NCBI RefSeq assembly: GCF_039645995.1
Contig: NZ_CP147920.1
Coordinates: 1,178,001 to 1,242,000 of the forward strand
Length of the DNA: 64,000 nt
From: Sulfurimonas sp. HSL3-1
GTDB taxonomy: Bacteria; Campylobacterota; Campylobacteria; Campylobacterales; Sulfurimonadaceae
Reading direction: 5' to 3'
Shown: positions 9,636 through 34,065 of the stretch, one piece after another
Numbering within the stretch: position 1 is the stretch's first letter
Layout: every line of letters starts with the position of its first letter
The notes under the pieces: generated by a model
Seen by the model: the letters and a program-made list of their open reading frames with translations, nothing else
What the model was told of the DNA's origin: nothing
Database searches by the model: none
Translations under genes and position numbers: made by a program

Positions 9636-12278
9636 TCAGTTTAACGTGATGAGCGGTGATTCCGTTGAGAACTCGAACCCCTTCTCCATAAAGAGGCGGA
9701 CACAGGCTTCGACCGCCTCGGGGTCGAAGGCGCTTCCCTTACCCTCCTGAATTTCCCGCATCGCCGTCTCAATACCCCGTGCCGAACGGTAAGGCCGGTG
9801 AGACGAGATGGCGTCGACCGTATCAGCGATGGCGATGATCTTCGCTTCAAGCAAGATGGCATCGCCTTTCAGCCCCTGGGGATAGCCGCTGCCGTCAAGA
9901 CGCTCGTGATGCTGCAAAATGATCTGCGCGATCGGCCAGGGGAAGTTGACGTCTTTGACGATGTCGTATCCGGCTTCCGGGTGGGTCTGGATCAACTGGT
10001 ACTCGATATTGCTCAGTCTGCCGGGTTTCGAGAGGATCTCTGCGGGGATATGGATCTTGCCGAGATCGTGTATGATTCCGGCGAAACCGATTCCGCGGAT
10101 CCGCTCATCATCCAGCCCCATCTCCCGGGCGATCGCCGTGGCAAGCTCGGCGACGCGATTTTGATGCCCGGCGGTGTATGGGTCGCGTGATTCGACCGTC
10201 GCGGCGATGGCCTGGATGGATTGCTCCAGACTTTCGCGCAGCAGGGCTTCGTGGCGGTCATGCGCCGCACGCGTGCGCAGATTGAGGATCCCGTAGGCGA
10301 GGTCTCCGGCAAGCTCTTCGAGCAGAGAGACTTCATCATTGTCAAAGGGCTCCGAAAGGGTTGAATAGATGCTCAGAGACCCGAATACCCTGCCGTCGTC
10401 AAAAAGGGGAAGGGCAATATTTGAAACGTAGCCTTGCATGGCGGCAGCTTGTTTCCATTCGGGATAGCAGTCGCTGCTCCCGATGTCCCGACAGATATTC
10501 GTCTTCCTCTCCCGGACCGCCGTGCCGGCCGGGAAACGCCCCCGATCCGTCGCGTCACAACGCTGATCTTCAATCCAGTACTCCTGTTTTTTGTAGCCGG
10601 CCCAGGCGACGGGATTTAGCCGTTTGTAGGGACCGTTTTCAACATAATGGACAACGGCTAGGCTGTAGCCGCCGTATTCGACGATCACACTTGTGGCATC
10701 GCGAAGAAGCATTTTTTCATCCGTCGCACGTACCAGAGCAAGATTGCCCTCTGATAGCGTTCGAAGGGCACGGTTGGCTCTGTTCAGTGCGGCTTCGGAC
10801 GCCTTTGCTTCACTGATGTCGCGTACGATGGCAAGGAAATAGGGTTTATCGACTTTCGTGATCGAAATACTGACCTCTACGGGAAAAGTCGAACCGTCTC
10901 TCCGGCGGTTGATGCTTTCAAAACGCATATTGTCGTCTTGATCTATACCTGCTATGATGCTTTTGGTCCGTTCCGGGGTGATGTTGGGGTCGATGTCAAG
11001 TACGGACTTCTTCATCAATGTCTCGCGGCTGTAGCCGAGTTGGCGGCAAGCCGTTTCATTAATATCCAGAAAGCGCATTGTTTCCGGGTCGACGATGTGA
11101 ACGGCATCCATCGATTTGTCAAAAAGAGAGTGGAAAAGTTCAAGCTGTTCCAGGAGTTTCCGCTGCTCTGTAATATCCATACCGATCGAAAGAAGCCCCT
11201 CCGTATTACCATGGGCGTCCTGGAGTCTTTTGTCGTACCATTCGATCTGGCGGGCTTCCCCTTCCCGTGTCATAATGGCATTGCTGTAACCGTTTGTTGG
11301 CAGATCAGACAGCGCATGCTGAAAAAGGTTTTCGGCATGTTCCCGGTCTGTTTCCGGTATGAAGAGTTCGAACCACGACCGGTCCTTCACCTCATCGAAT
11401 GCATAGCCTGACAGCGTTTCCATATATCGGTTGAAACGGGTAATCCGCCCTTTCAAGTCGCGTACCAATATGATCGCCGGCGCGGTTTCGACAAGATCGC
11501 GATTGAAATCCCGTTCGCGGAGGATCTGCCGCTCAACATTTTTACGTTTGGTGATGTCGATGCCGATGCCGATAATGGCATCGCCGCCGGGCAATACGAC
11601 TTGCTTGGTTGTCAGGGCATAGTGGCGGATGCCGTTTTTTGTCAGCAGGCGGGCTTCGGATGTGCTGTTACCGTCCGCGAGGGTTTCGGAGAGACGGTGC
11701 TTTACCTGCTCTTTGTCCCCGTAATGAACAAATTGCAGTGCACTGGAATGCCGCAGTTGTTCGGGCGCTATACCCATCAGCTGTTCTACCCGTTTATTCC
11801 ACTGAATAAGACGCCCCTGCTTGTCGATCAGGAAAAAGATGTCGGGAATACTCTCGATCAGCTTTTCGGAGAAGCGCTTTTCTTGGCGGAGCATATGCTC
11901 TGCATGTTTTTGATCCGTTATGTTCTCAAGAATATGAATAGAATAGAGGTAGGTTCCGGCCTCACTGTTCACGACGTAGGAACGGGACCGGAACAGGGTG
12001 CTTCCGACCCGGACCTCATCTTCTGCCGAATCGGTATGTGCATCCTCTTTTGCTCGTCTGCAATGAGGCAACGGGCCGTCGTTTATCGGGAAAACGTCAT
12101 AGTAGAATTGACCGATAATTTGCGGGTAGGAGAGACCGGCATAGTGTTGATAGGCTTTATTACAGCGTATGATGCGAAAGTCTTTGTCGTGGAGAAAGAT
12201 GGGATCCTGGATGACATCGAGTGCTGTAATCCATTCGCTAAGGGCACGCTCAATTTGCTCTGCAGGCGGGTATTCCAT
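9636..12278 (-). CDS. Multi-PAS, GAF and HD-GYP cyclic-di-GMP phosphodiesterase
   Basis: An 880-residue signalling protein. Four PAS domains can be placed at about 5-125, 135-255, 262-380 and 385-500, each ending in an ITDQK/ITKRK/ITEQR/ISEAK-type linker, then a GAF domain at about 515-670 and an HD-GYP domain at 690-870. The HD-GYP residues are intact: HD at 737-738, HH at 790-791 and GYP at 798-800, so hydrolysis of c-di-GMP is expected. There is no transmembrane helix or signal peptide, so it should sense an internal cue. The ATG follows AAGGAGATAA, a strong ribosome site. It stands alone, 235 bases from the next gene upstream. Confidence 0.93.
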   Translation of the reverse strand: MEYPPAEQIERALSEWITALDVIQDPIFLHDKDFRIIRCNKAYQHYAGLSYPQIIGQFYYDVFPINDGPLPHCRRAKEDAHTDSAEDEVRVGSTLFRSRSYVVNSEAGTYLYSIHILENITDQKHAEHMLRQEKRFSEKLIESIPDIFFLIDKQGRLIQWNKRVEQLMGIAPEQLRHSSALQFVHYGDKEQVKHRLSETLADGNSTSEARLLTKNGIRHYALTTKQVVLPGGDAIIGIGIDITKRKNVERQILRERDFNRDLVETAPAIILVRDLKGRITRFNRYMETLSGYAFDEVKDRSWFELFIPETDREHAENLFQHALSDLPTNGYSNAIMTREGEARQIEWYDKRLQDAHGNTEGLLSIGMDITEQRKLLEQLELFHSLFDKSMDAVHIVDPETMRFLDINETACRQLGYSRETLMKKSVLDIDPNITPERTKSIIAGIDQDDNMRFESINRRRDGSTFPVEVSISITKVDKPYFLAIVRDISEAKASEAALNRANRALRTLSEGNLALVRATDEKMLLRDATSVIVEYGGYSLAVVHYVENGPYKRLNPVAWAGYKKQEYWIEDQRCDATDRGRFPAGTAVRERKTNICRDIGSSDCYPEWKQAAAMQGYVSNIALPLFDDGRVFGSLSIYSTLSEPFDNDEVSLLEELAGDLAYGILNLRTRAAHDRHEALLRESLEQSIQAIAATVESRDPYTAGHQNRVAELATAIAREMGLDDERIRGIGFAGIIHDLGKIHIPAEILSKPGRLSNIEYQLIQTHPEAGYDIVKDVNFPWPIAQIILQHHERLDGSGYPQGLKGDAILLEAKIIAIADTVDAISSHRPYRSARGIETAMREIQEGKGSAFDPEAVEACVRLFMEKGFEFSTESPLITLN

Positions 12279-12512: not shown

Positions 12513-14609
12513 TTAGAAGCGGTAGCGCATACCGGCGTAGAACGCCCGGGGAGGGGCGACCCTGACCGTGGCGTCTTCCGCCATCGTCGCCAATGCGGAT
12601 GAATTGATGTTGACGAACTGGTAGTATTTTCTATCCAGCAGGTTGTCGAATCGTGCGAACATTTCAAAAGCGTCGCTGAAGCGGTATTCGCCGATCAGGT
12701 TAACGACCTCGTATCCGCTCAGTTTGTGCGCATTGACCTCATCCGCAAAATAACTGCTTTTTGCCAGCAGCTCCGTGATAAGTGTCGCTTTGGAGTTCGG
12801 CTGGTAATAGAGCGTCAGTTTGACGGTGTGTTTGGGCGTTCTCGGCACCTGGTTGCCGGAGAGGTCTATGCGTTCGAAGTCGCCCGTGAGCGGCCCTCTG
12901 CCGTCGGGGTCCGCGGTGACCTGCTGGGAGAGCCAGTAGCGTGTAAAGACCGCGTCGAGGTAGGTATAGGCCAGGTCAAACGCGACCGTTTTGCTCCGGT
13001 CACTCTGCACGGAGAGCTCGAAGCCCCTGCTGCGCATATCCCCGACGTTGTCGTAGTTGCTTTCGTTCTCATCGTCGGAGGTGATATAGCTCCCGGCGAT
13101 TCTTCCGATGTAATCTTTCCGGTCGAGTTGGTAGACCGATGCGTTATAGGTGAGTCCGGCATACCGGCCGCGCAGGCCGATCTCATAGTTGTAGGATGTC
13201 TCTATACCGATCTTCGAGGGAATATCCACAGCCGGATTCTCCCGCAGGGTCGCCTGGTTGTTGCTCATCTGGCGTACCGTCGGGGTCCTGAAACCGGTGG
13301 AAACACTGGCGTAAAGCGCATTGTTTTTGGAAAGAGCGTAGTTGAAACCGGCCCGGTAGGAGACGACGTCATAGGAGGGTTTGACGTTGTTGGCGCTCTC
13401 TTGATGGTCGATGTACCGCTGCTGGATGTTGTCGTAGCGGATATTGAAAGTGGTTGTCAGGTCCTTGACCACTTCGAGTTTCATCTCGCCGTACAGCGCG
13501 TTGATATCCTCCTCTGTCGCGTAATCGGACTGGAGGCTGCCGTCGGCCGCGAGGTATGCCCGTTCATCGGTGGTGTTTCTTTGGAGGTCGAATCCGGTCA
13601 TGAGACCCAGGATGTCAAAGGCCGTGCGGTATTCGCCTTTGGCGCCGTTCTGGTTCCAGATTTCATTCTTGTCCGTTTTCGTCCGTGCCGTTTTATAGGT
13701 CTTGTCATCGATGTAGGTATGGACATTGAGCATCAGGTTCGAATCTTCACCGAAGGAGTTGGAGTAGGTGACGAACCCTTTGGTCAGGTCGGTCTTGTAG
13801 TAGCCGCTGTACGAATACTCGTTTTCGCTCCGGGGGTCGGTTTTCGCCGCGAGGGTCCCGTGGACGCTGTTGCCGTCACCCGTTTCGCGTTTGGTATAGT
13901 CAAGCCCCAGCGTTATGTCGCTGGTGTCATTGAGGTAATAGGAGTATTTCCCGTTGATCGATTTAACCGAGACGTAGGATTCATCCCAGTAGCCGTCACT
14001 GCCCCTGTAGCTTCCCTGCAGCTGGAGCGCGGAGTTTTCGAAGCTCTGATTGGTCGTTGCCATCAGGCGTTTCGAGTTGAAGCTTCCGGCTTCCGCTTCG
14101 GCTTTCGACGAAGAGACGGCTTTAGCTTTCTTGGTCGTGATGATGACCGCGCCGGCGAGGGCGTCGTTGCCGTAGAGGTAAGACGCGCCCCCCTTGATGA
14201 CTTTGATCGATTCGATATTGTCCAGGTCGATGTTGATCTTGCCCGAGGTCTCCTGGACCGGGACGCCGTCGATGACGATGGCGACGCCGGGCTGTTCGCC
14301 CATGTACATCTGGTTCTCGATTCCCCGGATATGGACTTTGACGCTGTCGGTGCCGACGTTGGAGAGGGTGACACCCGGTACGCTGTTCAGGATGTCCGTA
14401 ATGGTGTGCGGGTTGATCTTTTCAACCTCTTCGCCCGTAATGGTCATGGTGTTTGAAACGCCCGTTTTTGAATCGACGCCGTCGTCGATCGTCGTAGACT
14501 CGACGGTCACGGCACCGATTGCGATGCTCTCGTCAGCATGGATTGCGGCGCTGTTTCCGAGCAGGAAACAAAGCAGTGCCGTATGTTTTGCCAGATGGTT
14601 TATATTCAT
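12513..14609 (-). CDS. TonB-dependent outer-membrane receptor
   Basis: A 698-residue receptor. A signal peptide occupies residues 1-25 (ends NSAAIHA). The plug follows, with ITGEEVEKINPHTITDIL, the VHIRGIENQ strand and IESIKVIKGGASYLYG; a 22-strand barrel with many Tyr/Asp/Asn-rich loops fills the rest and the protein ends in Phe (GMRYRF), the barrel-insertion signal. I start at 14609 rather than the ATG at 14627 because GAAAGAGAG stands at ribosome-site distance. The TonB box may be the ESIAIGAVTVES segment after cleavage. The ligand is unknown; the RND permease and polyferredoxin genes upstream suggest a metal or metal chelate. Confidence 0.92.
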   Translation of the reverse strand: MNINHLAKHTALLCFLLGNSAAIHADESIAIGAVTVESTTIDDGVDSKTGVSNTMTITGEEVEKINPHTITDILNSVPGVTLSNVGTDSVKVHIRGIENQMYMGEQPGVAIVIDGVPVQETSGKINIDLDNIESIKVIKGGASYLYGNDALAGAVIITTKKAKAVSSSKAEAEAGSFNSKRLMATTNQSFENSALQLQGSYRGSDGYWDESYVSVKSINGKYSYYLNDTSDITLGLDYTKRETGDGNSVHGTLAAKTDPRSENEYSYSGYYKTDLTKGFVTYSNSFGEDSNLMLNVHTYIDDKTYKTARTKTDKNEIWNQNGAKGEYRTAFDILGLMTGFDLQRNTTDERAYLAADGSLQSDYATEEDINALYGEMKLEVVKDLTTTFNIRYDNIQQRYIDHQESANNVKPSYDVVSYRAGFNYALSKNNALYASVSTGFRTPTVRQMSNNQATLRENPAVDIPSKIGIETSYNYEIGLRGRYAGLTYNASVYQLDRKDYIGRIAGSYITSDDENESNYDNVGDMRSRGFELSVQSDRSKTVAFDLAYTYLDAVFTRYWLSQQVTADPDGRGPLTGDFERIDLSGNQVPRTPKHTVKLTLYYQPNSKATLITELLAKSSYFADEVNAHKLSGYEVVNLIGEYRFSDAFEMFARFDNLLDRKYYQFVNINSSALATMAEDATVRVAPPRAFYAGMRYRF

Positions 14610-14677
14610 AGCTCTCTTTCTGTTCATTGTGTTAATGCGGATTGTTGCAACAGAGTGTTAATTAAATATTAAATTAA

Positions 14678-14696
14678 ATATATTTATTAAATATAT
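14678..14696. promoter_or_regulatory. 19-bp AT-rich inverted repeat before the TonB-receptor gene
   Basis: ATATATTTA-T-TAAATATAT is a perfect 9-1-9 inverted repeat centred about 78 bases upstream of the receptor start, inside an AT-rich tract (14657-14700) in otherwise GC-rich DNA. The 9-1-9 geometry matches that of Fur boxes, but the bases do not match the Fur consensus closely. Confidence 0.45.
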
Positions 14697-14734
14697 ATGA
14701 TAAGAATGTGTAGAAACGACCGCTATGCCCTGCG

Positions 14735-17700
14735 TCACGAGGGGACGCGCTGCTTATGGACATAGCTGTACATGACGGGCAGGTAGAAGAGGTTCAAGAC
14801 GGTGCCCCACGCCAGACCGAATCCCAGCGAGACCGCGAGAGGCTGGAAGGTGGCGGCCTGGCCCGAGGCGAAGAAGATCAGGGAGGAGAGCCCCACGAGA
14901 GTCGTCAGCGACGTCAGGATGATCGGCCTGAAGCGCCTGCCGGCCAGGAGGTGGATCTCGTCGGCGCTGCCGGCATGCCGGAGCGTGGACATCATGATGA
15001 TGCCGTCATTGACGATAACGCCGGCGAGGCCGAGCGCGCCGATCAGCGAGGGCATGGAGAGGTTCAGCCCCATGAGGGCGTGCCCCATCAAGACCCCCAG
15101 GAGGGAAAAGGGGATGACGGAGACAACGATCAGCGTCTCGCGGATCGAATTAAAGAGGTAAAGGATGGCGATAAAAATCAGGATGACCGACAGGACCGTC
15201 GCCAGCACGAGATCGGTCTCCAGGGCTTTCTTCTGTTCCGCTTCGCCTTTGAATTTCAAACGGACCCCCTCCGCCTTGAGCCTGCTGAGGGTCGGTTTGA
15301 GCTTCTGAAGCGCTTCGGAGGCGGTGATGATTTTCGAGTCGACATTGGCAAAGACGAAAAAGGTGGTCTCACCGTCATCCTTGACAAGCCGCTCCAGTGC
15401 GGTGATCACCTCGAAATCGCAGACATCCCGGAGGCGGACGATCTGTCCGTTCTTCAGCGGCACGCCGAGGGATTCGAAAAACGCAAAATCGTCCTGGTAG
15501 GCGGAGCGGACCTTGATATCGAGCAGGCTCTGACCGTCGAAGATCACGCCGATGCGTTTGGAGAGATAGAGGTCCGAGACAAAATTGCCCAGATAGGCAT
15601 CGGTGATGCCGAGCTGTTCGCCGTAGGCGTTGACCTTGATCTTGATCTCGTCGATCCCCCGTTTGATGTTGTCGCCGGCATACTTGATGCCATCGATTGC
15701 GCCGAGCTCTGTTTCAAGCATTTTGACCGCCCGGATCGCCTGCTGGTAATCGTCGCTCATCAGCCCGATACGGATATCCGCTTTGGCGTAGCCCATCCCC
15801 TTTTCGACGACCATCAGCTCTTCGAGTCCGTAATGCTCCTTGTAGCCCTGGGATACGAGCCATGCCCGCAGATCCCTCGAGATGGCTTTGGAGGAGCGTT
15901 CGCGCACGCTGTCGCGCCGGCTGTCGTAGAAACTGAGGTAGGGGGTAATGTAGCTGTCCATAAAGTTGTCGGGTTTTTTCTTCTGCAGTTCGACGCCGAT
16001 GTACCCGACGGAGGGGAACATCTCGGTGTCTCCCGTGGCGCTGCGCCGGTATCCTGCCGTCGACGTGACATTTTCGACGCCGAAACGGCCGCGCTCCTTG
16101 AGAAGGTCCTTCTCGATGGCCTGTACGATGGCGAGGGACTCCTCGAGGGTCGTCGTCGGGGCCGCTTTGAAGGTGATGTTCAGGGCGGTGGCGTCGAAGG
16201 GCTGGAACATCTGGAATTTTGCGTGTTTGAAACCGCTGTAGATCAGCAGCGGGATGATGATGACAAAGAGCAGCAAAAAGGTTTTCTGATACCGCATCAG
16301 CAGCCGGAGGGCTGCCGAATAGCGTCGGTTGACTCCCTCCCAGGAGAGGGTGCGCGAGGCGGGGCTGAGCAGGTGCACCGCATGGATCGGCAGGAAGATG
16401 AACGACTCGAGCAGAGACGCGATGACCAGAGCGCTGAAGGCGATGGGGATCATCTGCACGATCTCGCCGAGCCGGCCGCTGATCATCAGCAGCGGGATAA
16501 AGGAGAAGAGTGTGGTGGCCGAGGCGATGGTGACGGGCTTGGCCATCTCCCGCGTCCCGAGGAAGGCCGCCTTTGCCGGTGCGTACCCTTTTTCGATGTA
16601 CTGCTGGATGTTCTCGCTGACGACGATGGCGTCGTCGACGATGATACCGATGGCGATGATGACCCCGATCAGGGAATTGATATTGATGCTGTACCCGGTG
16701 AAGTAGAAATAGATGCTCCCCAGCACAAAGGAGGTCGGGATGCCCAGCGCGATGATGAAGGCCATGCGCGCATTGATCAGGGCAAAGGTCATCAGGGTGA
16801 TGAGGATGATCCCGAAGAGGATATTTGAGATGACGATATTGAGGCGCTCCTGGATGATCGTCGTCTGGTCCTGCCTGACATCGTAATCGACGCCGTCGAC
16901 CTTCATGCTCTCGAGGAGTTTATAGATCTGTTCCCCAATGGCGATGGCATCTCCTTTCGGGTTCTGCGAAAGCGAAAGGGTAATGGCGGTTTTGCCGTTC
17001 ATGCTCGCCAGCGTCGAAGCGTCTTCGTAGCGTTTAGTGACCGTGGCGATGTCCCTGAGCGCGATCTGGCGGTCGCCGATATTGAGCACGGTCTGTTCAA
17101 ATGCGTCCACGAACTTCTTCTGGTTTCCGACGGAGAGGAAATACTGGGCCTTGGCGTCGTCGATCTTGCCGAGGGGGTAGATATAGGAGAGTTCCGAGAT
17201 GGTTTTGAGCACTTCCGTATGTGACAGTCCGTAGGCGTCGATGCGCCGCTCGTCAAGCATGATCTCGTAGAAAAGGTCGGAATCGCCGAAGATCGTGACG
17301 TCCGAAACGCCGGGAATCGCCATCAGCCGGGATTTCAGCTTCTGTGCGAGTTCCCTGAGCCTGTCCAGGCCGACCCGGTCCGAACGCACCGATACCTGCA
17401 TCAACCCCCGCGCATGGGCCACGTTCCTGACCGCAGGCTCGTCCATATCGGAGGGGAGTGTCGGCACGACCAGGGCGATGGCGTCGCGGATCGATTCGGC
17501 CATCTCCGCTTTGTCGGCTCCTTTATCGAGCTCGAGGCGTACGGAGAAGCTGCCCGGGGAGATGACCGAGGTGACGCTCTCGACGCCGACCAGGTTTTTG
17601 GTCTCCTCTTCGAGCGGCGTCACGACCATGCGGTTGAGGACATCGACGGAGGCGCCGCCGTAGCTGCCGCGGATCGTCATGGTATCGGGTTCGATCTCGG

Positions 17701-17878
17701 GGGAGATCTCCTTGGGGATCATTGTATAGGTATAGATCCCGGCGGCGAAAAGAAGGAAAAAGAGCGTGTAGTTGATTTTATAGTTTTCAATAAAAAAATT
17801 CAGCAGTTTGTCAAACAGGGTGTTCTCACTCTCTGGGAGGGGCGTCTGCTCCGGGGCGGTTAACTTGCTTTTGTTCAC
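14735..17878 (-). CDS. RND-family efflux permease
   Basis: A 1047-residue inner-membrane permease of the resistance-nodulation-division family. Membrane helices fall at about 33-52, a group at 345-480, 540-560, a group at 865-960 and 985-1040, with two large periplasmic loops between, as in AcrB. The proton-relay acids of helix 4 are present (IGIIVDDAIVV) and the second half carries the matching GLAGVIVNDGIIM. The cytoplasmic start is 30 residues longer than in AcrB. It begins with GTG. No membrane-fusion protein or outer-membrane channel gene lies beside it, so its partners are elsewhere or it works without them. It follows the polyferredoxin gene by 74 bases. Confidence 0.92.
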   Translation of the reverse strand: MNKSKLTAPEQTPLPESENTLFDKLLNFFIENYKINYTLFFLLFAAGIYTYTMIPKEISPEIEPDTMTIRGSYGGASVDVLNRMVVTPLEEETKNLVGVESVTSVISPGSFSVRLELDKGADKAEMAESIRDAIALVVPTLPSDMDEPAVRNVAHARGLMQVSVRSDRVGLDRLRELAQKLKSRLMAIPGVSDVTIFGDSDLFYEIMLDERRIDAYGLSHTEVLKTISELSYIYPLGKIDDAKAQYFLSVGNQKKFVDAFEQTVLNIGDRQIALRDIATVTKRYEDASTLASMNGKTAITLSLSQNPKGDAIAIGEQIYKLLESMKVDGVDYDVRQDQTTIIQERLNIVISNILFGIILITLMTFALINARMAFIIALGIPTSFVLGSIYFYFTGYSININSLIGVIIAIGIIVDDAIVVSENIQQYIEKGYAPAKAAFLGTREMAKPVTIASATTLFSFIPLLMISGRLGEIVQMIPIAFSALVIASLLESFIFLPIHAVHLLSPASRTLSWEGVNRRYSAALRLLMRYQKTFLLLFVIIIPLLIYSGFKHAKFQMFQPFDATALNITFKAAPTTTLEESLAIVQAIEKDLLKERGRFGVENVTSTAGYRRSATGDTEMFPSVGYIGVELQKKKPDNFMDSYITPYLSFYDSRRDSVRERSSKAISRDLRAWLVSQGYKEHYGLEELMVVEKGMGYAKADIRIGLMSDDYQQAIRAVKMLETELGAIDGIKYAGDNIKRGIDEIKIKVNAYGEQLGITDAYLGNFVSDLYLSKRIGVIFDGQSLLDIKVRSAYQDDFAFFESLGVPLKNGQIVRLRDVCDFEVITALERLVKDDGETTFFVFANVDSKIITASEALQKLKPTLSRLKAEGVRLKFKGEAEQKKALETDLVLATVLSVILIFIAILYLFNSIRETLIVVSVIPFSLLGVLMGHALMGLNLSMPSLIGALGLAGVIVNDGIIMMSTLRHAGSADEIHLLAGRRFRPIILTSLTTLVGLSSLIFFASGQAATFQPLAVSLGFGLAWGTVLNLFYLPVMYSYVHKQRVPS

Positions 17879-17893
17879 GCTATGCCTATTTCT

Positions 17894-17912
17894 GCCTGCC
17901 GGCCGGGCAGGC
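17894..17912. other. Perfect hairpin between polyferredoxin and RND genes
   Basis: GCCTGCC and GGCAGGC form a 7-bp all-but-one G/C stem around a 5-base loop, in the 74-base gap just before the RND ribosome site. It could attenuate or stabilise the downstream transcript; there is no T-run on the coding side. Confidence 0.4.
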
Positions 17913-17952
17913 GTATTTTATTTGGTGCCGTTTTGCCACGGCGCGGCAGGGT

Positions 17953-19443
17953 CTACAGCCTGCCTGCAGGGTGTTCTGCGGCAGGTCCGGCCGTCACACG
18001 CATTGCCTGCGGTGCGTTTTTAGAAAACTTTTCCGTGGGGACGCTGTGGTTGTGGTGCCCGCGCTGCGCACGGCCGTAGGTGTCGAGGATGTAGCCTCGG
18101 TAGAGGTTGACGGCGACAAAAAAGATGATCAGCGATGCCGCAAACGGGAAGGCCAGGATTTTGGCGCGCTTTTTCGCCTCGATCAGACCGAAGCGTTTGT
18201 AGAGGATAACGAGTGCCCAGGCCACCCCGACGTACCGCAGGTAGGAGAAGAGGTGCACCCATGCATCCTTTCGGCTTGCCGGCGAGGTGAAGTCGCTCTG
18301 CACGCCGAAGCCGTAGGCGAACCCGTCGACGATCTTTTCCATCCCGCTGACAAAGAACATCTCTAGCGTATGCGAAAGCGACCCGAAGATGAACAGCGGC
18401 GCGAAGGCATACCCGAGGGTGTAGAAAACGGTGGTGTACTCTTTTTGAAGGATTTTGGACGCGACGAACATCCCCGCCGTGGCCGCAACAACCGAGAAGA
18501 GCACGGCGTATAAAAAGGCAAACAGTCCGACAGTATCCATACCGCCCAGGCCGGCGATCCCCTGAAGCGCCGCCGCCGTTTTCGCCCAGATGAATTCGTC
18601 GGCGATCGCGCTGCGTCCCATGCCGTGGTGGAACGCCATGGTGATGGGGATGGCCGCGACGATCAGGATGTAGGCCCAGACTTCCGCTTTTTCGATCTTG
18701 AAGTGCGAAAAGAGCGAAAACGAGGGCTTGGTCAGGCGGAAGCTGACCGCTTCGCAGGCGTCCGAGCAGTCCATGCAGAGCGTACAGTCTCCCATCGAGT
18801 TCTTTTTGTCAAAGTTGAAGGGACTCAGGCCATGTGTACATGCTTTGGCACAGTCAAAGGTTTTGCACTCGCTGCAGGCGCTCTGGTAGGTTCCTAGCCA
18901 CGTGAAGGAGAGCTTCTCGTAGGCCCGAGTCAGGGTGCCGATGGGGCAGATGTATTTGCAGTAGCTCATCTCTTTATAGACGAGATAGAAGACAAAAGAG
19001 AGCAGGGTCATGACAGTGAAGAGCACGGCCGAACCGAAAGGGGTATGGTACACGGAGGGGAAGCTGTAGTAAACACCCCACCAGCCGACCATGAGCAGCG
19101 TCACGCCGATGAAACGGTTTTCAAGCCATTTGGGCATACGCTTGTTCAGGCCGAATTTCGTGAGATAGTGTCCCAGGAATCCGTGGGGACAGATCCCGCA
19201 GAAGATGCGCCCGAAGGTCGGCAGCGACACGACAATGAAGAGTGACCAGAAAATCCCCCAGAAGAGTGCCGGCGTATAGAGGTTCTCTTTCCCAGGTACG
19301 GCGAAGCCCAGGGCGATCGCGTAAAAGAAGAGGGCCGTCACGGCCAGCCGTAACAGAAAAAGAAAGCGTTGGTTCTTGAAGAGGTATCCCAGCAGCGGCA
19401 TGCCGTAGAGGTCGTTTCGGTCGCGTTTGATATGATCTACCAT
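17953..19443 (-). CDS. Polyferredoxin-type membrane protein (NapH/NosR/CcoG-like 4Fe-4S protein)
   Basis: A 496-residue polytopic membrane protein with iron-sulfur sites. N-terminal helices (about 28-50 and 60-80) are followed by FCGICPHG (C82, C85), then YCKYICPIG near residue 166, and a soluble di-cluster ferredoxin segment with CSECKTFDCAKAC and CTLCMDCSDAC near 190-235. About six more helices follow, and the tail ends in a His-rich stretch (RGHHNHS). NapH, NosR and CcoG relatives carry electrons across or to the membrane; CcoG handles copper reduction. Here the neighbouring RND pump and TonB receptor make metal reduction or a redox-linked transport role plausible, but this is inference. 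Confidence 0.85.
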   Translation of the reverse strand: MVDHIKRDRNDLYGMPLLGYLFKNQRFLFLLRLAVTALFFYAIALGFAVPGKENLYTPALFWGIFWSLFIVVSLPTFGRIFCGICPHGFLGHYLTKFGLNKRMPKWLENRFIGVTLLMVGWWGVYYSFPSVYHTPFGSAVLFTVMTLLSFVFYLVYKEMSYCKYICPIGTLTRAYEKLSFTWLGTYQSACSECKTFDCAKACTHGLSPFNFDKKNSMGDCTLCMDCSDACEAVSFRLTKPSFSLFSHFKIEKAEVWAYILIVAAIPITMAFHHGMGRSAIADEFIWAKTAAALQGIAGLGGMDTVGLFAFLYAVLFSVVAATAGMFVASKILQKEYTTVFYTLGYAFAPLFIFGSLSHTLEMFFVSGMEKIVDGFAYGFGVQSDFTSPASRKDAWVHLFSYLRYVGVAWALVILYKRFGLIEAKKRAKILAFPFAASLIIFFVAVNLYRGYILDTYGRAQRGHHNHSVPTEKFSKNAPQAMRVTAGPAAEHPAGRL

Positions 19444-19485: not shown

Positions 19486-19566
19486 TTTTAAGTTAAGGAT
19501 GTAATTTTAATAGCTTAGTGTTAAGGGAGTGTTAAAGGGAGGGGATATCCCGCGCAAAACGGGCCT

Positions 19567-31831: not shown

Positions 31832-33072
31832 CGCAGCTGCGCGCGGCGCTCGCGTCGACGAACGGGCTCATCCTCGCCGGGATCGTTCTGGGAGCGCTTT
31901 TTGGCGCGTTCTTCCCCGAACTGGCCCTGGCGCAGCGGATCATCGGACAGATGTTCGTCGCCCTGCTGAAAATGCTCGTCGTCCCGCTGGTCTTTGCCAG
32001 CATCTTTGTCGCCATCGCCGGGCTGGGGACGCTGCACCATCTCAAAAATATGGGCCTGCGCACGATCGGGCTCTACCTGCTCACGACGGCGCTGTCAGTC
32101 CTGCTGGCGATCGTCGTCATGAACGTTCTCGGCATCGGCGAAGCGGTCTCCGCCGAAGGGATCGCGTTCGCGCAGGCGCACGAGATCAAACCCTTCTCAT
32201 TCGAAGCGATGCTGCTCGGCTTCATTCCGACAAACGTTTTCGCCTCCCTGACGAACGGGGCGATGATGCAGGTGATCGTCTTCTCCATCCTCTTCGCGAT
32301 CGCCAGTCTCTACCTCAGCGACCACCACCAAGGATTGATGCTCGACTTCTTTACCGGCGTCAACAACGCCATGCTCAAGATGGCCGAATGGGTTATCAAA
32401 CTGACGCCCCTGGGCGTCTTCAGCCTGATCGCCTATGTCGTTGCCGACGAGGGGGTCGACGTTATTCTCGGGCTCTGGAAATATATGCTCGTCGTCATCG
32501 GAGTGATTCTGCTGCACGGGCTGGTGACGTTGCCGTCGCTTGTCGCTTTCTTCGCACGGGTCAACCCCTACCATTATATGGGGCAGGTCAAGGAAGCGAT
32601 TCTGCTCGCATTTTCCACCGCCTCCAGCGCGGCGACACTGCCGGTCTCCATCGAGGTGAGCGAGCATAAAGGCGGGGTGCGTCGGGAGAGCGCAGGGTTC
32701 GTGCTGCCGCTGGGGGCGACGGTCTCCATGGACGGGACGGCGGCCTACCTGGTCGTGGCGGTGCTTTACATCGCGACCCTCGCTGGAGTGGAGCTCTCTT
32801 TCGGCGACCAGGTACTGCTGGGGGTCACCGTCGTGGCGCTCTCCGTCGGCGTCGCGGCGCTGCCAAGCGCCTCGCTGGTGATGATGGTCGTCATCCTGAA
32901 CCAGATCGGTCTGCCGGCGGACTATATCGGCCTAATCGTTGCCGTCGACCGTGTCCTCGACATGTTCCGGACCTCCCTCAACGTCACTTCGGATCTGATG
33001 GTCACGAAGATCGTCGACGTCACGACGCGCAAAGAGGCGCTTGGGGAAGCGGCCCAGGAGCGCAGCGCTTAA
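31828..33072 (+). CDS. Dicarboxylate/amino acid:cation symporter (DAACS)
   Basis: A 414-residue GltP/DctA-type transporter. The re-entrant loop 1 SSAATLPVS, the helix-7 MDGTA motif and the substrate-binding end VDRVLDMFRTSLNVTSD are clear; the Arg/Asp arrangement fits an acidic substrate such as glutamate, aspartate or a dicarboxylate. Starts with GTG overlapping the CitE-like stop (GTGA), so the pair is co-translated. The end overlaps the end of tonB by four bases on the other strand. Confidence 0.93.
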   Translation: MTQLRAALASTNGLILAGIVLGALFGAFFPELALAQRIIGQMFVALLKMLVVPLVFASIFVAIAGLGTLHHLKNMGLRTIGLYLLTTALSVLLAIVVMNVLGIGEAVSAEGIAFAQAHEIKPFSFEAMLLGFIPTNVFASLTNGAMMQVIVFSILFAIASLYLSDHHQGLMLDFFTGVNNAMLKMAEWVIKLTPLGVFSLIAYVVADEGVDVILGLWKYMLVVIGVILLHGLVTLPSLVAFFARVNPYHYMGQVKEAILLAFSTASSAATLPVSIEVSEHKGGVRRESAGFVLPLGATVSMDGTAAYLVVAVLYIATLAGVELSFGDQVLLGVTVVALSVGVAALPSASLVMMVVILNQIGLPADYIGLIVAVDRVLDMFRTSLNVTSDLMVTKIVDVTTRKEALGEAAQERSA

Positions 33073-33983
33073 TAGCCGCGCAGGTAGTAGCCGAATTTGT
33101 AGCGCACCAGGGTCTTCTGCTCCGGGCGGGGATACTTCCAGTAGACTGACTCTATCGTCTCTTTGGTTACCTCGTCAAGGAGGAAGAAGCCGCTGTTGCG
33201 CACGGTGCGGAAATCGGTCATCCGCCCGTCGGGGTGGAGATAGAACTCGACGATGTTGTAGTCGTTGACGCGCATGTTGTTGGGGATCATCGTGCTGCCG
33301 GTGGCGTTGAGCTGGGTCTGGGTGAGGCGTCGCATGATCTCCTGGTTGTCAAGCAGGTATTTCTGTTCCCCTTCGCTCAGTTTCCCGAACGCATCGCCGT
33401 AGGCCTCGCGGATATCATCGGGGATACGGCTTTCGCGCCGCGCGGTCGCTGATTTGGCGGCAGCTTTCTGTTCGACGTTCTTCTGTTTCTGCGACAGTTT
33501 GGCAAAGAGGTTTTTATGTTCCGTCGGCACCGCGGTGGCATTGGCCTCGGCCGTTTTCGGCTCGGGTGTTTTCATAAAAGGGATATAGGGCTTTTCAGGC
33601 GGCACGGGTTCCGTTTTGGCGACCCGCTTCTGCGGCTCGGCGATCTTTGTGGGCGTCGGGATCTTCTGCTGCGGTTTGACCGGTGTCGGCTGCGTGACGG
33701 GCAGCTGCTGCTGCGGCTGCGGGAGCGGTTGGGCCTTGGGAAGTTTTTCGAGCTGCTTGCCTTTGGGCATCGGGGGGATTTTCTCCGCCGGCGGGCGCTT
33801 GTTCGGGAGCGCGGCGTTTGCTTTGGCTTTCGGGCGCTCCTTGAGCGAGACCTTGATGCGGTGCTCCTGGACCTTTGGCTCGACCGGCTCGGTAACGAAA
33901 AGAAAGCCCAGGAGCAGTAAAAGCACCAGGATGAGCAGATGGAAGAGTACGGCAATAATGAGGGCGGCGGTACTTCGGCTCAT
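33069..33983 (-). CDS. tonB: Energy transducer TonB
   Basis: A 304-residue protein: one N-terminal helix (about 7-30), a long Pro/Lys-rich periplasmic linker (about 40-165), and a TonB C-terminal domain from about 215 ending in [10 protein letters not shown]. It would pass energy from ExbB-ExbD to outer-membrane receptors such as the one at 12513-14609. No exbB or exbD is adjacent. Start at 33983 after GGAAACACC; the -10 TATAAT is at 34044-34049. Confidence 0.85.
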
Positions 33984-34043
33984 CGGGTCGGTGTTTCCTT
34001 CCAGCCGCGCTGCGCTCTGTCGGCCTTGTTGTAAAGTGGGGGA

Positions 34044-34065
34044 ATTATAACCCATTTGCTATAAT
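34044..34065. promoter_or_regulatory. Back-to-back -10 boxes of tonB and hemL
   Basis: Minus-strand TATAAT (34044-34049) serves tonB and plus-strand TATAAT (34060-34065) serves hemL; the two boxes are only ten bases apart, so polymerases would exclude each other. Confidence 0.55.

Follow-up and report, generated by a model that had tools for sequence, protein, structure and literature searches.

How Gram-negative bacteria take up copper is not well understood, and copper is locked away in sulfidic habitats, with sulfur-oxidising, often N2O-reducing bacteria needing it for cbb3 oxidase and NosZ. In this study, a 64,000-nucleotide stretch of the 2.50-Mb single-contig genome of Sulfurimonas sp. 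HSL3-1 (the window, positions 1,178,001–1,242,000) was analysed for three minus-strand genes encoding a membrane polyferredoxin (PFD), an RND permease and a TonB-dependent receptor (TBDR). Judged by their sequences, these genes are one copy of a conserved Campylobacterota gene set, and they probably form a copper-scarcity uptake operon in which the TBDR would import a copper complex and PFD would reduce the copper.

Among the closest described systems, the CruR-CrtA-CrpH operon of Bordetella pertussis encodes CrtA, a TBDR for chelated copper, and CrpH, a PepSY_TM protein proposed to be a copper reductase (PMC12914433, PMC13038864). The polyferredoxin CcoG is stated to be a cupric reductase for cbb3 assembly (PMC8267372), and NosL is described as a Cu(I) chaperone for nitrous-oxide reductase (PMC6530538). 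The copper ligands of the receptor OprC are known (PMC8610252). DUF4198 has elsewhere been tied to periplasmic iron reduction (PMC8238504, PMC3751524), and one DUF4198 protein, whose neighbours are TonB receptors and NikR-type genes, binds Ni(II) with a Kd of 18 nM (PMC12537917). No literature on exactly the present gene set was found in openly licensed papers.

Like CrtA-CrpH, the set places in one operon a TBDR and a membrane protein proposed to reduce copper; it would likewise be copper-regulated and serve heme-copper oxidases, and some relatives carry ExbBD/TonB. However, the candidate reductase here is a 4Fe-4S polyferredoxin instead of a heme-dependent PepSY_TM protein, a direct-repeat operator and a linked two-component system replace CruR, RND and double-cubane modules are added, and the phylum is a different one. 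The TBDR of the window may not belong to the CrtA cluster. The CrtA-CrpH architecture, a TBDR followed by PepSY_TM, was not found at this locus, which has the polyferredoxin instead; a TBDR and PepSY_TM pair does lie under the operator in the relative L259. The operon would be a new form of TonB-linked reductive copper acquisition.

Transcription on the minus strand runs from PFD (17953–19443, 496 aa, with a His-containing C-terminal tail, GHHNHS) through the RND permease (14735–17878, 1047 aa, GTG start) to the TBDR (12513–14609, 698 aa including the signal peptide, from which its start was counted; the mechanical open reading frame begins at 14627). The open reading frames and their Pfam matches (Fer4_5 in two stretches of PFD, 8e-13; ACR_tran, 2e-133; Plug, 1e-18, and barrel, 2e-43) confirmed the three families named in that order by the initial annotation.

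The distribution of the set was evaluated by a scan of one genome per species (~85,000 species), from which 80 PFD loci were kept of 130 matches. By title, these were Campylobacterota, including Sulfurimonas, Sulfurovum, Sulfuricurvum, Sulfurospirillum, Arcobacter, Hydrogenimonas and Nitratifractor, except for a few titled 'bacterium' and one contig labelled Petrimonas (Bacteroidota; L143), which bears a typical Campylobacterota operon and is probably a binning error rather than a transfer. Within the class the occurrence was patchy, with matches in 46 of 347 genomes, some of them paralogues only. In the 73 non-redundant PFD loci flanked on each side by at least 4 kb, the same strand near PFD carried a TBDR in 71, TonB in 43, ExbB in 37, a double-cubane module in 32 and an RND permease in 19, counts from which some genes are missing, chiefly in GC-rich genomes, as neighbours were called mechanically (longest non-overlapping open reading frame). 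The typical full order is TBDR-ExbB-ExbD-DsbD_2-PFD-PFD2-DCCP-activator-RND-TonB (DCCP, double-cubane cluster protein; PFD2, a second, NapH-like polyferredoxin). The window has the short form PFD-RND-TBDR, a block that the sister genome G007 also carries, and the order in G060, G354 and G393 is TBDR-(ExbB-ExbD)-PFD-RND-TonB. The possibility that homologues of the three genes are rarely linked, raised in the initial annotation together with a proposal for such a neighbourhood search, fails, because TBDR and PFD are nearly always linked and the RND clade is specific to the operon (see below). The three genes constitute a real, conserved and apparently co-regulated system and not a chance patch.

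Co-regulation is suggested by a direct repeat with 11-bp spacing, TTAACA-N5-TTAACA, at both window promoters. The copy upstream of PFD, TTAACACTCCCTTAACA (19519–19535, minus strand), is exact, and the copy upstream of the TBDR, TTAATATTTAATTAACA (14656–14672, minus strand), has one mismatch. With at most two mismatches, the repeat was found upstream of 82 of 91 system promoters (those of TBDRs and of the window PFD) vs. 66 of 707 control genes from the same loci, with a p of about 1e-59 that is to be read as very strong but not literally, as related sequences are not independent; enrichment was seen only at the 11-bp spacing. The 2.5-Mb genome holds three exact copies, preceding the window PFD and the loci L200 and L199, and copies with one mismatch lie ahead of the window TBDR, the L199 TBDR, a TBDR-PFD paralogue pair (~35.6–39.1 kb), an OprC-like receptor (588.6 kb) and a five-CxxCH cytochrome (822.6 kb). 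Exact and one-mismatch sites together number 12, while the reversed pattern gave one exact and six one-mismatch sites, so that the one-mismatch class is partly due to chance. The paralogous PFD of the pair, at 37.7 kb, is 43% identical to that of the window; its assignment as a plain CcoG was rejected, since it follows a TBDR with a one-mismatch operator.

Direct repeats of this kind are typical of OmpR/PhoB regulators. An OmpR-type regulator and a kinase are encoded near ~25 of the operons, and their orthologue in this genome (mostly 41–50% identity to them) sits with ExbB/ExbD at ~1,902–1,905 kb. The OmpR-type regulator would be the one that binds TTAACA-N5-TTAACA. Before the two-component system of this genome, the operator was not above chance.

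Across 27 genomes, 100 exact operator sites were counted vs. 25 for the reversed pattern. From these, 40 sites were read, lying mainly outside the loci already examined and therefore not a random sample, and the families of their targets were confirmed for representatives. Downstream were NosL-type genes at six sites, OprC-like receptors at six, NosZ at two, ccoNO oxidase genes at three (two of them behind an OprC-like receptor), ExbB-ExbD-TonB at one, and at one the TBDR and PepSY_TM pair of L259. Several sites precede cytochromes or bd-like oxidases, and a peroxidase was also among the targets. The simplest common factor suggested by these targets is copper. The initial annotation had proposed a metal or metallophore as the cargo; this is supported and can be narrowed to copper, because the other targets of the operator include copper receptors, chaperones and enzymes and because PFD is fused to NosL in relatives. 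Iron and nickel, which the initial annotation also named, look less likely.

Other gene sets were observed behind operators. In L256 (1230–4569) and L274 (293–4478), NosL-type proteins, an FtsX-like permease and an ABC ATPase are encoded next to one another, possibly a copper-handling ABC system (domains checked in L256 only). Membrane proteins resembling bd oxidases, some with a fused cytochrome c domain, were found in L266 (474–3187), L291 (1910–4480) and L216 (6858–9403), and are perhaps copper-free oxidases for copper scarcity. The five-CxxCH cytochrome of this genome (L217, 4624–6495) is a secreted protein of 623 aa beginning 40 bp behind its operator, which is exact at the matching position of the sister genome L287. 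An obligatory co-occurrence of PFD with NosZ was considered and rejected, as this and several other genomes have PFD without NosZ.

The RND permease has the superfamily features, with ACR_tran over its full length and the two paired TM4 aspartates (VDDAIVV, at about residue 414 in the translation). It resembles general (HAE) permeases and fell far below the cut-off of the CusA/CzcA model TIGR00914 (247.6 vs. 701 bits). In a tree of 43 permeases, the 23 operon-linked members of its family, including that of the window, formed one clade (SH-aLRT 100), with same-family permeases outside the operon as nearest outgroups. Two residues of the periplasmic domains, H155 and M160, occur in every member of the clade but in only 3/14 and 2/14 of the permeases outside it, and M695 is present in 91% of the clade and in none outside; placing these residues on CusA by sequence gave no usable alignment. 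Elsewhere the operon has beside it one of two unrelated RND types, each with its fusion protein and outer channel. These lie in line in L075, L076, L119 and L121 but on the other strand in L084, L131 and L132, and RND pumps therefore seem to have been recruited more than once. That the permease is a bystander drug pump present in some operon copies is rather unlikely. It is absent from 54 of the 73 PFD loci, is similar to HAE-type rather than CusA-type pumps, and the total Met and His in its periplasmic domains is not raised relative to permeases outside the clade (p = 0.28), all as expected of a bystander, but the single clade, the repeated recruitment and the three clade-specific residues argue against it. 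A part of the permease in copper handling is nevertheless held less firmly than copper uptake by TBDR and PFD.

No fusion protein or outer-membrane channel is adjacent to the permease, whose locus is flanked by YchF upstream and a PAS/GAF/HD-GYP protein downstream, so its isolation, pointed out by the initial annotation, holds. The missing fusion protein is less unusual than it sounds, because several other members of the family, including the paralogue L024, likewise show none.

PFD belongs to the NapH/CcoG superfamily by its Fer4_5 membrane motifs and ferredoxin-type cysteine motifs; C82/C85, C162/C166, C190-C193-C198-C202 and C220-C223-C226-C230 are invariant in 22 orthologues. Its best NCBIfam model was NapH/MauN, and it missed the NapH equivalog (25.6 bits vs. 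a cut-off of 234). Its predicted model (pLDDT 76) found nothing significant in a PDB fold search (best E-value 0.35). With CcoG/FixG and NapH/NosR it shares the Fer4_5 motifs and two ferredoxin-like 4Fe-4S motifs, but it differs in scoring below the NapH cut-offs, in lying nearly always beside a TBDR, in an extra conserved membrane domain with histidines, and in the NosL and DUF4198 fusions of relatives. The relatives' PFDs are often longer (one or two representatives of each class were checked): ~780 aa with a DUF4198-like domain, ~610 aa with NosL, and ~900 aa with both. Their DUF4198 matches are below the Pfam cut-off, and the window PFD has no such domain. The flavinylated PepSY-DUF2271-DUF4198 iron-reduction clusters (PMC8238504) are comparable in combining a transmembrane electron conduit with DUF4198, some of them with TonB genes, but in the operons read no PepSY, DUF2271 or ApbE was identified beside PFD, and there was no Fur box.

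The receptors under the operator are of different families. The OprC-like receptor L277 matched OprC structures (E 2e-32), its CxxxM and HxM fell on the copper ligands of OprC in the alignment, and TIGR01778 was its best NCBIfam match, below the cut-off. Relatives of OprC/NosA with these ligands (PMC8610252) share the operator, and this genome has one of them, whereas the window TBDR belongs to a different receptor family, with no TIGR01778 among its matches and no cysteine in the mature protein.

The copper assignment is supported by linkage, the shared operator, the copper genes under that operator, the PFD-NosL fusions and the operon-specific RND clade, and also by the TBDR and PepSY_TM pair of L259, the linked OmpR-type two-component system and the role of CcoG as a cupric reductase. 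Several observations weigh against it. The window TBDR is without the CxxxM-HxM motif, and its family has no invariant Met, His or Cys in the mature protein; the Met and His content of the permease, as described, is not raised; in other phyla, DUF4198 is connected with nickel or iron; and at roughly half of the 40 operator sites read, no clear copper gene follows. In addition, the genome is without NosZ and NosL, and an operator before its ccoN was not above chance. Because these are lacking, the assignment for this organism rests on the OprC-like gene with its one-mismatch operator and on relatives.

One alternative is ferric-siderophore uptake. The TBDR would then bring in an iron complex, Fe(III) would be reduced by PFD in the periplasm and Fe(II) taken up through Feo, with the RND permease exporting the emptied siderophore in the way that pumps recycle pyoverdine in Pseudomonas. 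The best NCBIfam model of the window TBDR is a siderophore-receptor subfamily, below its cut-off, and where DUF4198 occurs near TBDRs, it is under Fur control in Caulobacter and responds to iron in Alteromonas (PMC3751524, PMC7190382). However, no 10/10 Fur box was found upstream of the TBDRs or at the window promoters, with a score distribution close to that of controls, and both the copper genes among the operator targets and the fusion of NosL to PFD speak against iron; this alternative is considered improbable. Equally improbable is a respiratory or redox regulon, in which the two-component system senses oxygen, nitrogen oxides or the membrane redox state and TBDR-PFD-RND is included for reasons that have nothing to do with a shortage of metal: the cytochromes, peroxidase and bd-like oxidase genes behind operators fit it, but OprC-like receptors, NosL and ExbBD-TonB have copper or uptake functions, not respiration as such. 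Nickel (or cobalt) uptake with DUF4198 as periplasmic binder, suggested by the Ni(II)-binding protein beside TonB receptors and NikR-type genes (PMC12537917), is highly unlikely, as the window PFD has no DUF4198, the relatives' matches are below cut-off, and the sites read mark copper and not nickel genes.

In the proposed copper-uptake mechanism, copper limitation would switch the operon on through the OmpR-family two-component system, and the TBDR, energised by ExbBD-TonB encoded elsewhere in the genome, would import ligand-bound copper. PFD would carry low-potential electrons from the cytoplasm via its 4Fe-4S clusters and reduce Cu(II) to Cu(I), a reaction that CcoG carries out on the cytoplasmic side and that has been proposed for CrpH in the periplasm. 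The metal would therefore be freed for periplasmic chaperones, which in relatives are joined to PFD as NosL/DUF4198-type domains, finally reaching cbb3 oxidase, and NosZ where present. The RND permease, borrowing a fusion protein and outer-membrane channel encoded elsewhere, would most likely use the proton-motive force to clear emptied ligand or excess Cu(I) from the periplasm; chelator recycling and Cu(I) relief are compatible roles, and the transport direction, the ligand and the electron path are as we infer them. Of the redox-linked import/export device suggested by the initial annotation, the import half draws on family knowledge and the analogy with CrtA-CrpH, and the export half is the less certain one.

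Three further features of the window were observed. The 74 bp that separate PFD from RND contain a strong GC hairpin (17891–17913), which could act in attenuation or mark a processing site. The PAS/GAF/HD-GYP protein directly downstream of the TBDR (9636–12278, minus strand, 880 aa) shows no sign of membership in the conserved operon. A TonB_C-type protein of 328 aa with a proline-rich middle (33069–34055, minus strand) is not near ExbB/ExbD.

In relatives, the operon includes an HGD-D protein that matches double-cubane cluster proteins (PDB 7yyl and 6eno, E about 1e-64; NF040772), accompanied by a BcrA-type ATP-dependent activator, PFD2 and a DsbD_2 membrane protein. The module is absent from the window locus, but two other loci of this genome, each with an exact operator ahead, carry DCCP: L199 (~1,587–1,594 kb; 5896–12950 of L199) as DsbD_2-DUF4198-PFD2-DCCP-activator-TBDR, and L200 (~1,407–1,413 kb; 5192–11371 of L200) as TBDR-(secreted protein)-PFD2-DCCP-DsbD_2. 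The DCCP at 1590 kb, with the activator adjacent in L199, scored 356 bits for NF040772 (cut-off 350), and the L027 copy, at 340 bits, was slightly under. Reductase and activator of relatives and of the two loci strongly match the known double-cubane proteins, but here they are tied to TonB receptors and membrane polyferredoxins. To our knowledge, the natural substrate of double-cubane reductases is not known. A more speculative and, on balance, doubtful extension is an ATP-powered reductive copper acquisition, its parts spread over three loci of this genome under one operator, in which DCCP and activator would drive very low-potential electrons via the polyferredoxins to the periplasm, copper would be stripped from tight complexes (e.g., with sulfide or thiols) that TonB receptors import, and the RND permease would export the emptied ligand. 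If true, such a machine would give double-cubane proteins a physiological role. The operon supplies a gene context for double-cubane reductases, and a TonB system that is coupled to a reductase and has a regulatory sequence of its own would make a copper-scarcity regulon testable in a major environmental phylum.

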